Of a DNA stretch of 64,000 nucleotides, positions 10,020-60,464 are shown in pieces (positions within the stretch are counted from its first letter, which is position 1; each line of letters begins with the position of its first letter). The notes under the pieces were generated by a model, which saw only the letters and a list, made by a program, of their open reading frames with translations, did not search any database and had not been told where the DNA came from. The stretch is taken from contig PAAV01000052.1 in the NCBI GenBank assembly GCA_002699485.1, positions 1 through 64,000 on the forward strand. Direction: 5' to 3'. The DNA is from Chloroflexota bacterium (GTDB lineage: Bacteria > Chloroflexota > Dehalococcoidia > Lucifugimonadales > UBA2962). Position numbers and translations under genes: made by a program.

Positions 10020-11222
10020 TTAAGGGATAAATAGTTCGCTTTCTGCAAAAACCTCGTCTTCAGCTACTCCGCCTGATATAAGTACTCTTCCGTCTGGTAA
10101 CGTTATCACCGCATGCCGATATCGAGATTTAATCATCTCAGATGCATTGATCCACGAAGAATCCTCGGGGTTATAAATTTCAGCTGTGTTCTTAGCTCCT
10201 TGCCCCCCGGTAACAAGTACTCGACCGTCATTAAGAAGACTCGCGGCATGTTCAGATCTCGCTATGCCAGTATCTCCTGCAGATGACCAAGATGATGACT
10301 CTGGATCCCAAATCTCTGCGGACGTCACCTTACCGGTTCCTCCGACTATTTTGCCTTGCCCCCCTACCACGAGTACTCTACCATCACTTAGTAGTGTAGT
10401 TGTATGGAGTACTCTGCCAAGCAACATATTGCCTGCATCAGACCAAGTATTAGACTCAGGGTCATAGATTTCAGCTAAGTCGATATGGGGGCCATCTAAC
10501 TTTCCACCTCCTACGACAAGTACTCGGCCATCCTTTAATGCTATAGCTGTATGTAGCGTTCTTTCTGTGGTCATAGGAGCTAGTTCTGACCATTCCCCAG
10601 TTTCTGGATCGTATGCTTCAACTGTGTCGAGCCTTTTCGCCTTCTTCGTATCAAACCCGCCAATAACGATAACTCGTCCATCTAGTAGTTGTGCCCACGC
10701 ACTTCTTTCGCGTGCTTTTATCATGTCGCCAGTCTGACTCCATGTTCCCTGAGATGAGTCCCAACTCTCAGCAGATTTAATTCCTTCAGTTGTTGACCTC
10801 TCTCCACCTGCAGCTAAAACTGAGCCATCTGGAAGTAATGCAACTAAGTTTTTTGTCCTGCCTTCAGATTGCTCTCCAGTGTATTCCCATTTATCAGTAG
10901 CTGGGTCATATATTTCTGCTGTAGGGTGAACTAAAGCGCGGTGTCCGCCAACACCTTTGCCTCTTCCTCCAGTAGTGAAGATTCGACCGTCATTCAGTAA
11001 AACCATGTGATGAGATTGCCTATCGTTACCCATTGACCCGGTTGCAATGAATTGACCAATCGGTTCTATTACCTCAGTTTTTTCATCAATTTCAGTAGAT
11101 TCATCTACATTAGCTTGAGTTTCGATTGAAGCAGGTTCATTAGAACAGGATATTAATGTTGTTCCAATTAAACCAATTAAAAGTAAACTGATTGTTTTGA
11201 GGAATGCTGTTTTGCAATTCAC
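10020..11222 (-). CDS. Kelch-repeat lipoprotein
   Basis: N-terminal signal and lipobox (LLIGLIGTTLISC); repeated DGRVLVVGG...AEIYDPES..W Kelch blades. Confidence 0.85.
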   Translation of the reverse strand: MNCKTAFLKTISLLLIGLIGTTLISCSNEPASIETQANVDESTEIDEKTEVIEPIGQFIATGSMGNDRQSHHMVLLNDGRIFTTGGRGKGVGGHRALVHPTAEIYDPATDKWEYTGEQSEGRTKNLVALLPDGSVLAAGGERSTTEGIKSAESWDSSQGTWSQTGDMIKARERSAWAQLLDGRVIVIGGFDTKKAKRLDTVEAYDPETGEWSELAPMTTERTLHTAIALKDGRVLVVGGGKLDGPHIDLAEIYDPESNTWSDAGNMLLGRVLHTTTLLSDGRVLVVGGQGKIVGGTGKVTSAEIWDPESSSWSSAGDTGIARSEHAASLLNDGRVLVTGGQGAKNTAEIYNPEDSSWINASEMIKSRYRHAVITLPDGRVLISGGVAEDEVFAESELFIP

Positions 11223-15858: not shown

Positions 15859-17595
15859 ATGATAACTAGAACAGTTATAACCTTCTTAACGTTTTTTCTA
15901 ATCTTTCTTATCAGTTGTTCGGGTTCAGAAATTAATGAATCGAAAGTTAGCGATTCAGGTGGTGAATTTGCTGTACCTACTCCAAGTGAGTTAACTGCGG
16001 TTGATTGTGAGCCTTACGGCACATGGACACTTTTAGAAGATAAGATGATTAATGAAAGGCAGAACCATGTTTGGACACCTTTAAATGATGGACGGATTTT
16101 ATTGGCAGGAGGGAGAGGCAAAGGTGGCGTACGTTGGCCGAGAGTCTTCCCTCATACAGAACTTTTTGACCCTACTACAGGCAAGTGGATCGAATCTGGA
16201 GATATGTTTGACGAGAGACAAGACTTCGCAATGTTCACTCTAGATGATGGCAGAGTTCTGGTTGCTGGAGGGCAAGACATTCGATTGGACGCCATTAAAG
16301 GAAGTGAGGTTTGGGACGAGAGCGGCAATTGGACTAAGACAGGAAAATTAAATGACTCTCGAGAGAGAGGAGCTGCGGCCAAATTAAGTGACGGCAGAGT
16401 CTTGTACACCGGTGGCAAAAATAATCTTTTGGGAGACAATGCGACCACAGAGATATTTAACCCCAATACTAACGAATGGGCACTTTCAGGTGACATGAAC
16501 CAAAAAAGATCCATACATACTGCTACACTACTTCAAGACGGCAGAGTTATAGTTATTGGAGGAGGGAAACACAGGGAAGGACCATATTACTCTAGTGCCG
16601 AAGTATGGGATCCTGAGACAGAGACTTGGGAATATACAGGGTCAATGCGATTGGCACGAGTTCAACATACAGCAACACTACTTGATGATGGCAAAGTTCT
16701 TGTGGTTGGAGGAGTAGGAGAAGCAGTACCCGATGTCGATACCGGCACTCGCGCCTCCGCTGAAATTTGGGATCCCGCTACTGGTGAATTTGAGCCAGCT
16801 GCTTCAATGGGTAATTCTCGAACAGAACATGAATCGACTCTTCTGTCGGATGGTAGGGTATTGGTAACAGGAGGTTTATATCCTCAATCTGAGATTTATG
16901 ATCCTGCAACAGATACTTGGTATTCAACAGGCCCTATGATAGAACCGAGATATCGGCATACAGCAACACTACTTGATGATGGCACGGTTATTGTTAACGG
17001 TGGTCAAGATGACAAATATACACATATTACGATTGAACAATTCGATGGTTCTGGATTTGATACATCAAAAGCATGTGCTGTAGGTATAAAAGGAGATGAG
17101 TCCCCATTGTTGACATTACCAAGTCCCGAGAGTGGAGTTGTTGCAGAGGATGACTTGAATGAATTTGGTACTGAAAAAGGAAGCCATGACGCTAAATTCT
17201 CTGAACTAGAGGATTCTGGACTTTCTGAATCAGATCTTGTGTTTGAAGAGCCGATTATTGGCGGCGCAGATGGTGATGATGTAATTGTGCCATTGGGTAC
17301 TCCAGCTACTCTTCATGTTGGTCAACGACTTGGAAGTCCATCTGCTGATGCAAATGGAAATATAGTTACTTTCAAAGAATTGATCGCTAATTCACCTGAA
17401 GAAGGCATTGCTGTCCGTGTGAATTTACGTGCAGCGAATTTTGATTGGGGTGATATGGAACTTTCAATTCCAGCTGGTCAAAGCGGGCCAGGCGTAAAAA
17501 GCGTTGGAAGAGTTTGGCTTGGAGTTTTGGGAGTGTCTACGAATGAAGCAGGTGAAATCACTGCTACTATAGTTGTCTTTGACCCAGTAAAATAA
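15859..17595 (+). CDS. Kelch-repeat lipoprotein with extra C-terminal domain (paralog A)
   Basis: Lipobox FLISCSGSE; multiple DGRVLV(A/V)GG Kelch blades; C-terminal VPLGTPATLHVGQRLGSPSADANGNIVTFKELI domain. Confidence 0.87.
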   Translation: MITRTVITFLTFFLIFLISCSGSEINESKVSDSGGEFAVPTPSELTAVDCEPYGTWTLLEDKMINERQNHVWTPLNDGRILLAGGRGKGGVRWPRVFPHTELFDPTTGKWIESGDMFDERQDFAMFTLDDGRVLVAGGQDIRLDAIKGSEVWDESGNWTKTGKLNDSRERGAAAKLSDGRVLYTGGKNNLLGDNATTEIFNPNTNEWALSGDMNQKRSIHTATLLQDGRVIVIGGGKHREGPYYSSAEVWDPETETWEYTGSMRLARVQHTATLLDDGKVLVVGGVGEAVPDVDTGTRASAEIWDPATGEFEPAASMGNSRTEHESTLLSDGRVLVTGGLYPQSEIYDPATDTWYSTGPMIEPRYRHTATLLDDGTVIVNGGQDDKYTHITIEQFDGSGFDTSKACAVGIKGDESPLLTLPSPESGVVAEDDLNEFGTEKGSHDAKFSELEDSGLSESDLVFEEPIIGGADGDDVIVPLGTPATLHVGQRLGSPSADANGNIVTFKELIANSPEEGIAVRVNLRAANFDWGDMELSIPAGQSGPGVKSVGRVWLGVLGVSTNEAGEITATIVVFDPVK

Positions 17596-17640: not shown

Positions 17641-19395
17641 ATGAAAAGCAGAATATCTGCAGGTATTTTAACTGTCACCCTAATCTTTCTTATAAGCTGT
17701 TCCAGTTCAGAAAATAATGAATCGTCGGCTGGCGATTCAGATGGTGAATTTTTGATCTCAACCCCGACTCCTTTTAGTACAGTAGATTGTGAACCATACG
17801 GCGCTTTCACACTGTTAGAAGGGAAAATGTTTAATGAAAGACAGAGACACGGTTGGGTAATTTTGAGCGACGGCCAAATTTTGACGACTGGAGGGCGTGG
17901 CAAGGGCGGCCCACGTGGACCAAGGGTATTTCCTCATTCAGAGACTTTTAACGCTGATACCGGTCAATGGACCGAATCTGGAGATATGCTTACAGAGAGG
18001 CAAGACTTTGCAATGTTTACCCTGGATGATGGAAGAGTTCTTGTTGCCGGTGGACAAGACATCCAAATGGAAGCTATGAAAAACAGTGAGGTATGGGACG
18101 AGAGTGGCAACTGGACTAAGGTAGGAAAATTAAATGATTCTCGAGAAAGAGGAGCTGCGGTTAAATTAAGTGACGGCAGAGTCTTGTACACCGGAGGCAA
18201 AAACGATCGTTTAGGAGACAATACGACCACTGAGATATTTGACCCTAATACGAACGAATGGGAACTTTCAGGTGACATGAACCAAAAAAGATCCATACAT
18301 ACTGCTACAGCTCTTCAAGATGGCCGTGTGATTGTTATCGGAGGAGGCAAACATAGGGAAGGACCTTATTATTCTAGTGCCGAAGTATGGGATCCTGAGA
18401 CAGAGACTTGGGAATATACTGGATCAATGAGATTGGCGCGCGTGCAGCATACAGCAACTTTGCTGGCTGATGGAAGAGTTCTTGTGGTTGGGGGAGTAGG
18501 GGAAGCTGTTAATGACGTGGATACGTCCACTCGTGCATCAGCCGAGATTTGGGATCCAGCTACTGGTAAATTTGAGCCAGCTGCGTCAATGGGAGATGCT
18601 CGAACAGAACATGAAGCTACTCTTTTATCAGATGGCAGGGTGTTGGTAACGGGTGGTTTATTACCTCGGGCCGAGGTTTACGACCCTGATACTGATACAT
18701 GGTATTCAACCGGACCGATGATAGAGACTAGGTATAGACATCTAGCATTGAAACTTAACGATGGTACGGTGATTGTAAGTGGTGGCCAAGCAGATAAATA
18801 TGTTCATATTACAGCTGAAACATTTGAGGCACCGGTCTTTGACACAACAAAAGCATGCAGCGTTGGAATACAAGGGAAAGTTTCGCCTCTGCTGGCTCTT
18901 GATGATCCTGGTTCTGGAGAGATTGACGATGCAGGAAATGTTTATGCTGAAGGTGAATTAAATGAATTAGGCAGCGTGGAAGCACATTCCGCTCGGTTCT
19001 CTGAACTGGAAGAATCAGGACTTTCCGAATCAGATCTTGTGTTTGCAGACCCTGTTGTCGCGGAGCCTGGTGAAGATGTGGTTGTACCTTTAGGTACTCC
19101 AGCTACCATAAGAATTGGTCAAGGCCTTGGTAGCCCTTCAATGGACGCAAATGGAACTTTAGTGAGGTTCAAAGAATTGGTCGCAAACTCTGATGAAGAA
19201 GGTGTTATTGTTAGAGTCAATCTACGTTCCAGTGGATGGGATATGGGAGATATGGACTTGACGATTGCTCCAGGAGAAAGCGGGCCAGGGGTGACAAGTT
19301 TTACCAGAGTATGGCTTGGACTTTTGGGAGTCTCAACAAATGAAGCTGGTGAAACAACTGCTACTATAGTTGTATTCGAGCCGAGTACGAAATAA
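17641..19395 (+). CDS. Kelch-repeat lipoprotein with extra C-terminal domain (paralog B)
   Basis: Lipobox FLISCSSSE; close tandem paralog of 15859-17595 with long exact DNA matches. Confidence 0.87.
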   Translation: MKSRISAGILTVTLIFLISCSSSENNESSAGDSDGEFLISTPTPFSTVDCEPYGAFTLLEGKMFNERQRHGWVILSDGQILTTGGRGKGGPRGPRVFPHSETFNADTGQWTESGDMLTERQDFAMFTLDDGRVLVAGGQDIQMEAMKNSEVWDESGNWTKVGKLNDSRERGAAVKLSDGRVLYTGGKNDRLGDNTTTEIFDPNTNEWELSGDMNQKRSIHTATALQDGRVIVIGGGKHREGPYYSSAEVWDPETETWEYTGSMRLARVQHTATLLADGRVLVVGGVGEAVNDVDTSTRASAEIWDPATGKFEPAASMGDARTEHEATLLSDGRVLVTGGLLPRAEVYDPDTDTWYSTGPMIETRYRHLALKLNDGTVIVSGGQADKYVHITAETFEAPVFDTTKACSVGIQGKVSPLLALDDPGSGEIDDAGNVYAEGELNELGSVEAHSARFSELEESGLSESDLVFADPVVAEPGEDVVVPLGTPATIRIGQGLGSPSMDANGTLVRFKELVANSDEEGVIVRVNLRSSGWDMGDMDLTIAPGESGPGVTSFTRVWLGLLGVSTNEAGETTATIVVFEPSTK

Positions 19396-24427: not shown

Positions 24428-25483
24428 TTAATTCACTTTGATATGTAATGAAGGTTCTGGGCGTGACTTTATCTCTCCTATGACCGCGTGGTCAGAGACA
24501 CCGTTTAGCTTTAAATTTTCAACAAGACTGGGTAATTTATTTGGACTAACTGAAATAAGTAGACCGCCTGATGTTTGGGCGTCGCAAAGGATAAGTTTAT
24601 TTTCCATACTAATATCTGATGACCATTTAACTGAATTTGCAGCCGCTTTAAAGTTTTCCTTAGTTCCTGAAGGGGCATGCCCTGCTAATGCAGATTCATA
24701 GGCATTAACCATGGTAGGTATGTTGTTCATATGTATATTTGCCATTAGTCCGCTACCTTCAGTCATTTCCATTAAATGGCCAATCAGCCCAAACCCGGTT
24801 ATATCCGTACAGGCGTTAACCTTAGAGGCTCTCATCGCTTTAGCTGCTTTATCATTTAAAGTTTTCATAATGTTTATGCACTCGTTTAGTGCCTCACTTG
24901 GAAGGTCATCGAATTTTGCAGCTGTAGTTAGTATGCCAGATCCAAGTGGCTTTGTTAGTACCAACACGTCATCTGGGTTACATGAAGAATTCGAAATCTC
25001 ACTGCCTGGTTTCACTGTTCCTGTAACTGATAATCCGTATATTGGAACATCATTTTTTATGGTGTGACCACCGACAATCAACATTCCAGCTTCTATAGAC
25101 TTGGATGACCCGCCATCAATAATATCTTGAAGTATTTTATTTGGTAAATTGTCAGGAAAAGAAACTATGTTGAGAGCAAAAAGTGGCTCCGCACCCATAG
25201 CATAGATATCACTTACTGCATTAGCTGCTGCTATTTCTCCATAGGTAAAAGGATCATCTACATTAGGAGGAAAAAAATCAACTGACTGAACTATAGCTGT
25301 ATCTTGACTTAACTTATATACAGCTGCGTCGTCTCTTGATTGAATCCCTGACAATAAAGATGGATTATTTAATTTAGGTAATTGATGCAGTACCTGCACC
25401 AAGCGCTCTGAGCTAAATTTAGCAGCTCAACCAGCTGACGAGCTTAGTTGAGTCAAACGAATTTCGTGACCAGTTTTTGACAA
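24428..25483 (-). CDS. selD: selenide, water dikinase (SelD), selenocysteine-containing; UGA at 25427-25429 is read as Sec (track ORF 24428-25402 is an artefactual truncation)
   Basis: Manual translation from TTG 25483: MSKTGHEIRLTQLSSSAG-U-AAKFSSERLVQVLHQLPK..., then SRDDAAVY, VDFFPP.VDDPFTYGEIAAANAVSDIYAMG, GGHTI. Sec aligns with the catalytic Cys of E. coli SelD (RLTQYSHGAGCGCK). GGGAG-like RBS upstream. Confidence 0.92.
25382..25402 (-). promoter_or_regulatory. candidate bacterial SECIS hairpin in selD
   Basis: Minus-strand RNA UUGGUGCAG-GUA-CUGCAUCAA: 9-bp stem (one G-U pair), loop GUA; loop starts 33 nt after the UGA. Confidence 0.75.
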
Positions 25484-28423: not shown

Positions 28424-29734
28424 ATGAAAATCGTGTCATCTGAAATGAAAAATGTGTTGCCGACGGCACATTTAAAAATTTTGAATGCTGCTGTGGATTT
28501 ATCTCAACAAATGGATACAGATTTGTATCTAGTAGGTGGGTGTGTGAGGGATATCATGTTGGGTTTAAACGAGTCTGAATTCGATATTGATTTGACTGGC
28601 AGCAGCATTGACAGGGGGTTTGCGACCACATTAGCAGAAAAGTTAAATGGCGCGGTTACAAGTAGTTCTGTTTTTGGTACACATAAACTTTCTGTTCCTG
28701 TTGGCCTTGACAATAATCTTGAGATTGATTTGGCTAGATGTCGCTCTGAGACTTATAAAAACCCAGGTGCTTTGCCGGACGTAGATTCTGGTGACATATT
28801 TCAAGATCTAGATAGAAGGGATTTTTCGATAGCGGCTATGTGCATAGTTTTACGTTCTCCGAAAAATCAAGGTTGGCAATACGGCCAGCTGATCGATCCG
28901 CATTGTGGCTATGATGACCTAATCAATAAACAGTTAAGGGTTCTTCATAAAAATAGTTTTATCGATGATCCTACTAGAATGTTTAGGCTTATACGGTATT
29001 CATGCAGGTTAGGATTCGATATAGAAGAAAGCACAAGGAAAACATTTGAATCTTCCGTAAATTGGGTGACCAATATATCTGGAGATCGGGTCAGACACGA
29101 GCTTGAAAAGATATTCGAAGAAAAAGAAGTTGGGTTAATTCTTTACACATGCGTCAAGCTTGGCTTGTTGCCTGCGTTTTTTACTGAATTGAGCTGCGAT
29201 CATTTGAAGGAATTCAGAGATATGTTGTATTCCGATAGTTTAGACCAGGACCGTGTCGAGTTTTGGCTTGGACTTTTCGCAATAAATGCAGATAAAACTC
29301 AGTTGGAATATCTGTCTCAAACACTAAACTTAAGTTCGAAACAAAACAATGTGATTAATGATTTATGTGCTTTGAATGAACAACTAAAACAAAATGAGGA
29401 ATCCCTAGTTGCTGACAATCTTAAGCGAAGCGATATATACAAATTCCTATTAGGTTATAACCTTACTGCGATTCGTATATGTGCTGCGACTACTTCTAAC
29501 AAGTCCATCAAAACATTACTAGAAATTTATCTAAATTCATTAATAAATACCAATCTATACTTGAGCGGAGAAGATTTGATATCCCTAGGTATGAGTAAAG
29601 GCCCCGAGATTGGTGAACTATTAAATGATTTACTTTATGCTAAATTAGATGGGCAGTTAGAGTCTGCAGATCAAGAAATCCAATTTGTTAAAGATCATAT
29701 TTTTAACCTTAAAGATGGTATTAACTTAGACTAA
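28424..29734 (+). CDS. cca: CCA tRNA nucleotidyltransferase/poly(A) polymerase family
   Basis: LYLVGGCVRDIMLG..EFDIDLT; RRDFSIAAM; DDPTRMFRLIRYSCRLGFDIEEST. Confidence 0.87.
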   Translation: MKIVSSEMKNVLPTAHLKILNAAVDLSQQMDTDLYLVGGCVRDIMLGLNESEFDIDLTGSSIDRGFATTLAEKLNGAVTSSSVFGTHKLSVPVGLDNNLEIDLARCRSETYKNPGALPDVDSGDIFQDLDRRDFSIAAMCIVLRSPKNQGWQYGQLIDPHCGYDDLINKQLRVLHKNSFIDDPTRMFRLIRYSCRLGFDIEESTRKTFESSVNWVTNISGDRVRHELEKIFEEKEVGLILYTCVKLGLLPAFFTELSCDHLKEFRDMLYSDSLDQDRVEFWLGLFAINADKTQLEYLSQTLNLSSKQNNVINDLCALNEQLKQNEESLVADNLKRSDIYKFLLGYNLTAIRICAATTSNKSIKTLLEIYLNSLINTNLYLSGEDLISLGMSKGPEIGELLNDLLYAKLDGQLESADQEIQFVKDHIFNLKDGINLD

Positions 29735-35086: not shown

Positions 35087-36520
35087 CTATATCGTAAGTT
35101 CCTTAAGAGCTTGAATAACAATATCATCTTGTGCTGGTAACACGGTTCTTGCGTCTAGAATCACCTGGTCTGCCTCAATTCTCGATATAATTGGTGTTTT
35201 ATAGGATCTTAGACTAGCTGTTATTTTATTTGCTGATACAGTTTTTGGTGATATTGATAGCACGTACGTATCTAGTACTTCCCCAGGTAAGCTACCACCA
35301 CCAATGGTACTCTTTGATTTCATTACTTTCCCTTGAACACCCGAGTTTTTTAACCAGGTATTTGTTCTTCTCTTGATCTCTGGCAAGTCAGCGGAGATCA
35401 TAGCCCATATGGGTATCTTTTTTAGAGGGTCATTAGATATATAGTGTAATAAAGTAGAGTGAAGTACAGTTAAATTTAGTTTATCTATCCTTAAAGCTCG
35501 AGCTAGAGGGTGTTTCGATAATTTATCTATTAAAATTTGGCTTCCGAGTATTATGCCAGATTGAGGACCTCCTAAAAGTTTATCTCCAGAGAAGAAAGTC
35601 AGGTCTACATCGTCTCCAAGGCTTTCTTGCACAGTGGGCTCAGAATTTAATCCGAACTTTCCAGTATCTATCAACGTTCCACTACCTAAATCATTTAACA
35701 CAGGTATATTGTGATGATGTCCCAGCTCTGCTAATTCTTTAACAGACGGATTGTGCGTAAATCCTATTTTCCGAAAATTACTAGTATGTACTATTAAAAT
35801 TGCTCCAGTATTTTCTGTTATCGACTCTTGATAATCAGACAAATATGTACGGTTTGTTGTTCCAACTTCTATTAATGTGGCTCCGCTTTGATTAAGTAAG
35901 TCTGGTATTCTAAAATTCCCACCAATTTCCACGGATTCGCCTTTTGAAACAATTACTTCTTTGCCTTTGGCCAAAGCTGTTAAGCATAGTAGAGCTGCAG
36001 CTGCATTGTTATTAACTACTAATGACGAGTCACTTCCGGTGACTTGATTTATTAAGTCTTGTACGTGCTTTTGGCGATTACTTCGTTTTCCACTCTGAGG
36101 ATCATATTCGAGGTCGGTATATACACCTGCACTACTCACTATAGCTTTGATTGATTCATCTGAAATAGGGGATCTTCCTAAGTTAGTATGTAAGATAACT
36201 CCGGAAGCATTAATCACTGGACTAGGTTGAACTAGCCACTTTTCCTCTGCAGATAGTTCAATGTTTGAGATTAGTTTCTTCAATGATGAAGGTTTCTTAC
36301 CACGTTTAATTTCATTTCTTAGTTCATTCACGTTTTGTTGTACGAGTTTCACTACACTGTCATGAGAATAATATTCCAACAGTTTTTTGATAGCGGGTTC
36401 GTTTAAAATCCGATCGATACTAGGTATGTTTTTGAGATCATTCATGGCAACGATTTTAAGCATACAATAACATATATGTTGGACTAATTCAGATAATGGG
36501 TCTGTGAAGATCGATTGCAA
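35087..36520 (-). CDS. selA: L-seryl-tRNA(Sec) selenium transferase
   Basis: VINASGVILHTNLGRSP; VVNNNAAAALLCL; EVGTTNRTYLSDY; catalytic Lys in FFSGDKLLGGPQSGIILG. Start may be the internal ATG at 36445. Confidence 0.93.
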   Translation of the reverse strand: MQSIFTDPLSELVQHICYCMLKIVAMNDLKNIPSIDRILNEPAIKKLLEYYSHDSVVKLVQQNVNELRNEIKRGKKPSSLKKLISNIELSAEEKWLVQPSPVINASGVILHTNLGRSPISDESIKAIVSSAGVYTDLEYDPQSGKRSNRQKHVQDLINQVTGSDSSLVVNNNAAAALLCLTALAKGKEVIVSKGESVEIGGNFRIPDLLNQSGATLIEVGTTNRTYLSDYQESITENTGAILIVHTSNFRKIGFTHNPSVKELAELGHHHNIPVLNDLGSGTLIDTGKFGLNSEPTVQESLGDDVDLTFFSGDKLLGGPQSGIILGSQILIDKLSKHPLARALRIDKLNLTVLHSTLLHYISNDPLKKIPIWAMISADLPEIKRRTNTWLKNSGVQGKVMKSKSTIGGGSLPGEVLDTYVLSISPKTVSANKITASLRSYKTPIISRIEADQVILDARTVLPAQDDIVIQALKELTI

Positions 36521-48063: not shown

Positions 48064-49260
48064 ATGAATATGTCAGACAACAACCCTATTTATCTAGATC
48101 ATGCTGCTACGACTCCCTTGGAACCCCAAGTGTTTGAGTCAATGAAGCCATATTTTTTTGGTAATTATGGTAATCCATCAAGCATATATACATTAGCTCA
48201 GCAAGCTCGAGAAGCCGTTGATGTTGCTCGGGATAAAGTAGCTGGAGTGCTTAATTGTAAGACTAGTGAGATTGTGTTTACCAGTGGCGGCACTGAATCA
48301 GATAATGCAGCAATCAAAGGCACTGCAATTGCCTTAAAAAATGTAGGTAATCACGTAATAACTACCGCTGTAGAACATCATGCCGTTTTGCATTCGTGTC
48401 AACAGCTGGAGCAAATGGGTTTTGAAGTCACTTATTTGCCAGTAGATGAATCTGGAAAAGTGTCTTTGTCAGATATTGAAAATGCTATAACCACAAAAAC
48501 TATTTTAGTTAGCATAATCATGGTTAACAATGAGATTGGCACCATACAGCAGATTACTGAAATCTCAAAATTAATAAAGCGAGTAGCAAGTTCTTATAAT
48601 ACCTCGATTCTCTTTCATACTGATGCTGTACAAGCAGCTGGCTATTTGGATTTAGATGTTAAACGGTTGGGGGTTGACCTGTTGAGTCTGTCAGCCCATA
48701 AATTTTATGGGCCAAAAGGAGTAGGATGTCTTTTTATAAAAAGAGGAATACCTTTTGAACCCCAGCAAGCCGGAGGTGGTCAGGAGCGTGAGCGACGATC
48801 AGGCACACTAAATGTTCCTGGGATTGTTGGTTTAGGAAATGCTATAGAATTAGCTGAAAGCCGTAGGAATATGGCTGTCATACATTGTTCCAATCTGAGA
48901 GATAAGTTGATAAAAGCATTAGTAGAGACCATACCGGGAACAAAATTGAATGGCCATGCTGTTGATAGAGTGGCGAATAACGTTAATGTGTCTTTTGAGG
49001 GAGTAGATGGAGAGCCAATTCTTTTGGGATTGGATTTTGCTGGAATTTTAGGTTCAAGTGGAAGCGCTTGTTCCTCTGCTTCACTTGAGCCATCTCACGT
49101 TTTGCTTGCAATCGGTCTTAATGCAGAAGAAGCAAGAGGAAGCCTAAGACTTACTCTTGGGTTAAATAATACAGAAGAAGAAATAGAAAAAACTTTAGAC
49201 GTTTTGACTGATCTTGTAAAAAAATTAAGAGAAATGTCCTATACTGCAGGAGTGCACTAA
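48064..49260 (+). CDS. cysteine desulfurase (NifS/IscS-like)
   Basis: [44 protein letters not shown]; active-site [18 protein letters not shown]. Confidence 0.94.
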
Positions 49261-49931: not shown

Positions 49932-50270
49932 ATGTCCACTATCAACGTAAGTGACACGACTTTTGAGGCTGAAGTAATATCATCAACTACACCTGTTTTG
50001 GTTGATTTTTGGGCGGAATGGTGTGGTCCGTGTAAGATGATTGGTCCGATAGTTGAAGAATTATCCGATGAATATAAAGATCAAGTTAAGTTTACCAAAG
50101 TTGACGTTGATGAAAACCCTGAAATGGCTCAGAAGTACGGTGTAAGAGGCATTCCAACGCTTCTTATTTTTAACGGAGGGGCTCCAGTCGATCAATTAGT
50201 AGGAGCACTACCGAAAAAGGCCATCAAAGATAAACTTGATACTATTTTAAACAACATTAATGGGGCTTAA
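49932..50270 (+). CDS. trxA: thioredoxin
   Basis: VLVDFWAEWCGPCKMIGPIVEEL; YGVRGIPTLLIF. Confidence 0.96.
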   Translation: MSTINVSDTTFEAEVISSTTPVLVDFWAEWCGPCKMIGPIVEELSDEYKDQVKFTKVDVDENPEMAQKYGVRGIPTLLIFNGGAPVDQLVGALPKKAIKDKLDTILNNINGA

Positions 50271-50339
50271 AGCTTCTCTAGATTGTTAATGGTATGAATA
50301 TGACAATTGGTTTCAGGGATCAAGCGAAGCCGTATTTTT

Positions 50340-50434
50340 GGGAGTGAATGGGTCCTGGTGGGCCCCTCGATCTTCAAAATCGTTGGCTCCGGCCCTTCGG
50401 CTGGAACGGTGGGTTCGACTCCCTCGCACTCCCG
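50340..50434 (+). tRNA. selC: tRNA-Sec (anticodon UCA at 50374-50376)
   Basis: Acceptor GGGAGTG/CACTCCC; 6-bp D stem GGGTCC-TGGT-GGGCCC; anticodon loop CTTCAAA; long variable arm TCCGGCC-CTTC-GGCTGGA; T loop TTCGACT; discriminator G. CCA not encoded (CCG follows). Confidence 0.93.
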
Positions 50435-50444
50435 CCGCTACGAC

Positions 50445-51260
50445 TTACTGTGCTATTACGCCCCCGTCAATTACTAATTCCGATCCTGTTATATATGAAG
50501 ATTCATCAGATGCAAGAAATACTATTCCCATAGCTATTTCTTCCGATTCAGCAAATCTTCCAAGAGGTATTTGTGATGTTCGGTCCGAATGTAACTCTGG
50601 GTTTGTAAACAATTCCGTCGTAAGAGGTGTTTTAGTAAAACCAGGATGAATTGAATTAACCCTTATGTTCTCTGGCGAATATTGCACAGCTGCAGCTTTA
50701 GTTAGCTGTCGTACGGCTCCTTTTGCTGCTTGATAGGATGTCACGGTGTGCGTTCCTACTATGCCATGTATTGATGATACGTTTATTACAGAACCACCTT
50801 TTTGCTTCCTTAATAAGGGAATAGCATGCTTCATGCCTAGCAAGACACCTTGAGCATGAACTTTAAGCTGAGATTCTAAGCCTTCAACAGTAGTATATTC
50901 AACCATAAGAGCTTCTTCAGGACTGCGCGCGTCTGTTACAGATGAATCGTAATTAGGTATTCCTGTTCCAGCATTATTCACCAAAACATCAAGCTTCCCT
51001 TCTACTGATTCTATTGACTTATATGCTGAGACCCAGTTGTCTTCGTTTGTAACATCTAAGTGTATGTAACGCGCATATCCCCCCATTTGGTTTATTTGCT
51101 GAGCCGTTTCTTCACCCATATCGTCACTTATATCGCCAATTATTGTCTTGGCTCCTTCCTCGGCACATTTCCACGCCGCTGCACCTCCGATGCCTTGTAT
51201 TTCGTCTGATAATCCGGTAGCCGCACCCGTTATTAATATAACTTTATTATTTAATCGCAT
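50445..51260 (-). CDS. short-chain dehydrogenase/reductase (SDR)
   Basis: VILITGAATGLSDEIQGIGGAAA; NNAGTG; S...YQAAKGAVRQLTKAAA. Confidence 0.92.
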   Translation of the reverse strand: MRLNNKVILITGAATGLSDEIQGIGGAAAWKCAEEGAKTIIGDISDDMGEETAQQINQMGGYARYIHLDVTNEDNWVSAYKSIESVEGKLDVLVNNAGTGIPNYDSSVTDARSPEEALMVEYTTVEGLESQLKVHAQGVLLGMKHAIPLLRKQKGGSVINVSSIHGIVGTHTVTSYQAAKGAVRQLTKAAAVQYSPENIRVNSIHPGFTKTPLTTELFTNPELHSDRTSQIPLGRFAESEEIAMGIVFLASDESSYITGSELVIDGGVIAQ

Positions 51261-60344: not shown

Positions 60345-60464
60345 CCCTTGGTGATTTTGGCGAGGTTGACCCACCCGTTCCCATCCCGAACACGGAAGTG
60401 AAACGCTTCAGCGCTTACGATACTGCACCCGCAAGGGTGTGGGAAAATATGTCATCGCCAAGGG
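60345..60464 (+). rRNA. rrf: 5S ribosomal RNA
   Basis: CCCTTGGTGA...CCACCCGTTCCCATCCCGAACACGGAAGTGAAACGC...CATCGCCAAGGG; complementary ends CCCTTGG/CCAAGGG; 120 nt. Confidence 0.95.

Follow-up and report, generated by a model that had tools for sequence, protein, structure and literature searches.

Judged from its sequence, positions 50340-50434 of the window (the whole 64,000-nucleotide stretch of DNA analysed here) almost certainly hold the functional selC gene of a SAR202-type Dehalococcoidia bacterium (Chloroflexota). The gene appears to be a genuine, ordinary member of the known bacterial tRNA-Sec family and is probably working. Taken together with its client genes, it indicates that selenocysteine is used by this marine bacterium, SelD and a SelW-like protein being among the proteins that would contain it. 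Run over the whole 64-kb window, ARAGORN reported a single tRNA, a tRNA-Sec(TCA) starting at 50340 on the + strand, and the Rfam model RF01852 (gathering score 47 bits) gave a full-length match at 50340-50433 (61.8 bits, E=3.8e-10 over the window, model positions 1-91 of 91). These two calls confirm the tRNA-Sec proposed in the initial annotation. The overlying ORFs (50338-50649 and 50348-50533), which it called spurious, have no support of their own. It had described the gene as hidden, but standard tools find it at once.

50340-50434, + strand: selC, tRNA-Sec(TCA) (ARAGORN, RF01852, anatomy compared with 33 relatives)

The earlier stem-by-stem reading (acceptor, D arm, anticodon, variable arm and T-loop) proved correct on re-examination. 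The acceptor stem has seven Watson-Crick pairs (GGGAGTG, 50340-50346, with CACTCCC, 50427-50433) and a non-standard eighth position, where A50347 lies opposite G50426. The D arm is built from GGGTCC (50350-50355), the loop TGGT and GGGCCC (50360-50365), giving a 6-bp stem and a 4-nt loop. The TCA anticodon (50374-50376) sits inside the loop CTTCAAA (50372-50378), on a stem of four clean pairs and two unpaired outer positions (C-U and U-U), and the long variable arm forms seven pairs (50388-50394 with 50399-50405). In the T arm, the stem GTGGG (50409-50413)/CCCTC (50421-50425) encloses the loop TTCGACT and carries a mismatch, U50410 opposite U50424. The discriminator G73 is at 50434, followed at 50435-50437 by CCG, not CCA. 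All positions of the 13-position acceptor-T stack (8+5) are present, two of them non-standard (A-G and U-U) and both of these common in relatives. The list of oddities drawn up earlier named the A-G and U-U positions, which are real, and missed the unpaired outer positions of the anticodon stem. Folded alone, the selC strand has a minimum free energy z-score of -2.41, with 3 of 200 shuffles equally low.

The initial annotation had said that a low Sec covariance score, or a better tRNA-Sec elsewhere with this copy decayed, would speak against the gene. The score of 61.8 bits stands above the cut-off of 47, and a covariance-model search of the window's own genome (G000; 1.9 Mb, 90.7% complete, MAG contamination 5.58%) returned this gene as the sole tRNA-Sec over that cut-off. 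The runner-up, at a site that the general tRNA model matches too, reached 46.6 bits and fell below it. The window gene does score lower than most of its relatives (61.8 vs ~70 bits). A tRNA-Sec over the cut-off was found in 36 of 40 genomes (the window's own and 39 relatives) and in 134 of the 198 genomes of the class. The congeners' tRNA-Sec genes are nearly identical, and the spacer between trxA and selC (53-73 nt) is poorly conserved among them. Despite the contamination estimate, synteny with the congeners argues against a foreign origin of selC; an origin from phage was considered and rejected, the tRNA having no match in phage records. In one congener (G002, 79% complete) selA, selD and the tRNA-Sec are seemingly absent. 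Since selB and the TGA-containing SelW gene are kept there, these absences probably reflect missing contigs. As to other RNA genes, the window carries a 5S rRNA gene at 60347-60463 (RF00001, 83 bits), its only rRNA match to exceed the gathering score.

To interpret the apparent defects of selC, 34 tRNA-Sec genes from its order (the window gene and 33 relatives) were aligned. Across the alignment, the D stem and long variable arm are paired in 98.5% and 97.3% of cells, respectively. Both sides were altered in 20 pairs, amounting to 155 cells; shuffles averaged 45 and none reached the observed number. The covariation score was 0.452 compared with 0.180 for shuffled and at most 0.141 for slid controls. 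Because double-sided changes are so far above both kinds of control, the comparison indicates that tRNA-Sec structure in the order is under selection. At the site of the window's U-U T-stem mismatch, some relatives have U-A, A-U or G-U, and the pairing register must therefore be right. The same U-U T-arm motif occurs in ARAGORN-confirmed tRNA-Sec of Rhizobiales, Burkholderiales, Rhodocyclaceae and Clostridia; since it is found in Proteobacteria and Clostridia as well, a U-U T stem is a tolerated feature of bacterial tRNA-Sec.

These comparisons bear directly on whether the gene might be a decaying tRNA-Sec pseudogene, whose stem mismatches and lost CCA would signify loss of function. The A-G eighth pair, the U-U T stem, the weak outer anticodon stem and CCG in place of CCA all seem to point that way, but the same features run through the order: of the 34 genes, 27 have no standard pair at the second T-stem position (the U-U site), 16 have a non-standard eighth acceptor pair, and none pairs the outermost position of the anticodon stem. 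Moreover, CCG is common to four congeners, the clients and machinery are intact, and the genome has no second tRNA-Sec copy. Decay is thus very improbable and already largely refuted, and the apparent defects are, on this comparative evidence, normal lineage variation, as the alignment indicates for the A-G and U-U positions noted initially. We give as little credence to the idea that this is some other UGA-decoding tRNA with a long variable arm, for instance a suppressor or allo-tRNA that carries serine or cysteine. There are tRNAs with a long arm that share some features of tRNA-Sec, and the unformed eighth acceptor pair, which leaves seven clean pairs, would be compatible with one. However, the best-matching family is RF01852, over its cut-off and with a UCA anticodon and G73, selA, selB and selD are found in the same genome, and relatives in which the eighth pair is formed are homologous to the window gene along its whole length.

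The 3´ end of selC can be set in a similar context. Of the order's 34 tRNA-Sec genes, 25 encode CCA and 9 do not, and CCG follows G73 in all four congeners examined (the window's genome and three others). In a Secmarker survey, 93% of the tRNA-Sec genes of bacteria were reported to include the CCA end (PMC5330540). In the window's genome, 17 of 30 checked tRNA genes encode CCA; as the other 13 do not, 3´-end completion by a nucleotidyltransferase would be routine there. The initial annotation proposed that this tRNA would depend on a CCA-adding enzyme such as one encoded in the window:

28424-29734, + strand: tRNA nucleotidyltransferase, PolyA_pol (CCA-/A-adding) family (NCBIfam, PF01743)

That remark holds, in that CCG is encoded and a nucleotidyltransferase gene is present at the stated place. 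From its sequence the protein is a candidate for tRNA 3´-end completion and may add all of CCA or only part of it. Among NCBIfam models an A-adding enzyme matches it best, with a score falling far short of the cut-off. A second PolyA_pol-family protein is encoded elsewhere in the genome (G000:C34), and the two may divide CC- and A-addition between them.

The genes for making and using selenocysteinyl-tRNA are present and intact in the genome. Proteins SelA, SelB and SelD all score over curated cut-offs, with selB on another contig (C20) of the same genome. The genes and elements that we consider here are:

35087-36520, - strand: selA, L-seryl-tRNA(Sec) selenium transferase (TIGR00474, 532.7 bits, cut-off 267.9)
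24428-25483, - strand: selD, selenide water dikinase, a UGA client (TIGR00476, 366.9 bits, TGA read as Sec)
25382-25402, - strand: likely bacterial SECIS hairpin, TTGGTGCA GGTAC TGCATCAA (fold and comparison with 14 relatives)
G000:C58:127049-127264: SelW/Rdx-family gene (L218) with an in-frame TGA at CVPU (CxxU site)

The selD gene has one in-frame TGA, at 25427-25429 (SSAG-U-AAKF), which falls at the catalytic site, and readthrough gives full-length SelD; in the relatives, each selD above the cut-off likewise carries one TGA. The hairpin begins 27 nt past the first base of the UGA and is likely, as a predicted fold, to be the SECIS element. In some relatives, L052 and L056 among them, both arms have changed and the hairpin is preserved, while the predicted fold of others differs. 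Its shuffle test was modest, with 10 of 200 shuffles equally stable, and an Rfam search around selD at E values up to 10 matched no SECIS family. In the SelW/Rdx-family gene, CVPU aligns with CTQC of a relative, the TGA is present in the window's genome and the three congeners searched, and a hairpin (ACAGGC-AGTTA-GCCTGT) lies 3´ of it. Formate dehydrogenase alpha was also considered as a UGA client and rejected, since no in-frame TGA occurs in the TIGR01591 homologues of this genome.

If the known bacterial pathway operates here, the selC transcript would be trimmed after G73, a tRNA nucleotidyltransferase would add CCA, and SerRS would charge the tRNA with serine. With selenophosphate supplied by SelD, SelA would then turn Ser-tRNA into Sec-tRNA, which SelB would bring to UGA codons that are followed by a SECIS hairpin. 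The clients in this genome would include SelD itself, encoded in the window, and the SelW/Rdx-family protein.

The surroundings of selC raise the question of how the tRNA is expressed. As described initially, the gene lies between trxA and a convergent SDR gene:

48064-49260, + strand: cysteine desulfurase, NifS/IscS family (TIGR03402, 515.9 bits, just under the curated cut-off of 530.75; tblastn)
49932-50270, + strand: trxA, thioredoxin with a WCGPC site (TIGR01068, 131.3 bits; tblastn)
50445-51260, - strand: SDR gene

A gap of 69 nt separates the end of trxA from selC on the same strand. We surveyed 33 relatives of the order; in two of them the contig stops at this point, which leaves 31 that can be judged. 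Of these, 27 have trxA immediately upstream of selC and in the same orientation, and four lack it there. Twenty-six of the 27 gaps measure 8-101 nt and the remaining one 350 nt. A cysteine desulfurase is often found further upstream (tblastn). In a second set of loci, drawn by the T-arm motif and so biased to the U-U form and overlapping the relatives in some genomes, trxA was upstream of selC in 33 of 48 Chloroflexota loci compared with 0 of 20 from outside the phylum. The short gaps make co-transcription of trxA and selC plausible. A scan around selC recognised no sigma-70-like promoter and no terminator. We tentatively suggest, with somewhat less than even confidence, that trxA and selC have long been kept together as a unit in Chloroflexota, often with the cysteine desulfurase upstream, in which tRNA-Sec would be produced from, or co-regulated with, a transcript encoding redox and chalcogen-handling proteins. 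A limited literature search found no paper on trxA-selC linkage, which offers a small testable lead on tRNA-Sec expression in Chloroflexota. A selenocysteine-containing TrxA, raised as seven loci with trxA matches failed the motif search, was rejected, the proteins having Cys sites (WC[QVM]PC). Elsewhere in the window, translations at 10020-11222, 15859-17595 and 17641-19395 read as three lipoprotein-like proteins with Kelch-type repeats, the latter two apparently recent tandem duplicates.

In comparison with known systems, the window gene shares with bacterial tRNA-Sec (RF01852) the UCA anticodon, the 6-bp D stem with its 4-nt loop, the long variable arm and G73. All 13 positions of the acceptor-T stack are there, but the gene differs in its A-G eighth acceptor position, its U-U T stem and the lack of an encoded CCA. 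The U-U tRNA-Sec genes of Rhizobiales, Burkholderiales, Rhodocyclaceae and Clostridia have the identical T-arm motif (GTGGG-TTCGANT-CCCTC), yet trxA is upstream in none of their 20 judgeable loci. Variants with a 12-bp (7+5) stack have been described, one of them from Dehalogenimonas (PMC5330540), and the window gene resembles these in having only seven clean acceptor pairs. In contrast to them, both strands of its acceptor stem have an eighth position, although mispaired, and the usual 8/5 spacing is kept; selC of the window is therefore not a true 7/5 gene and belongs to the 8/5 type.
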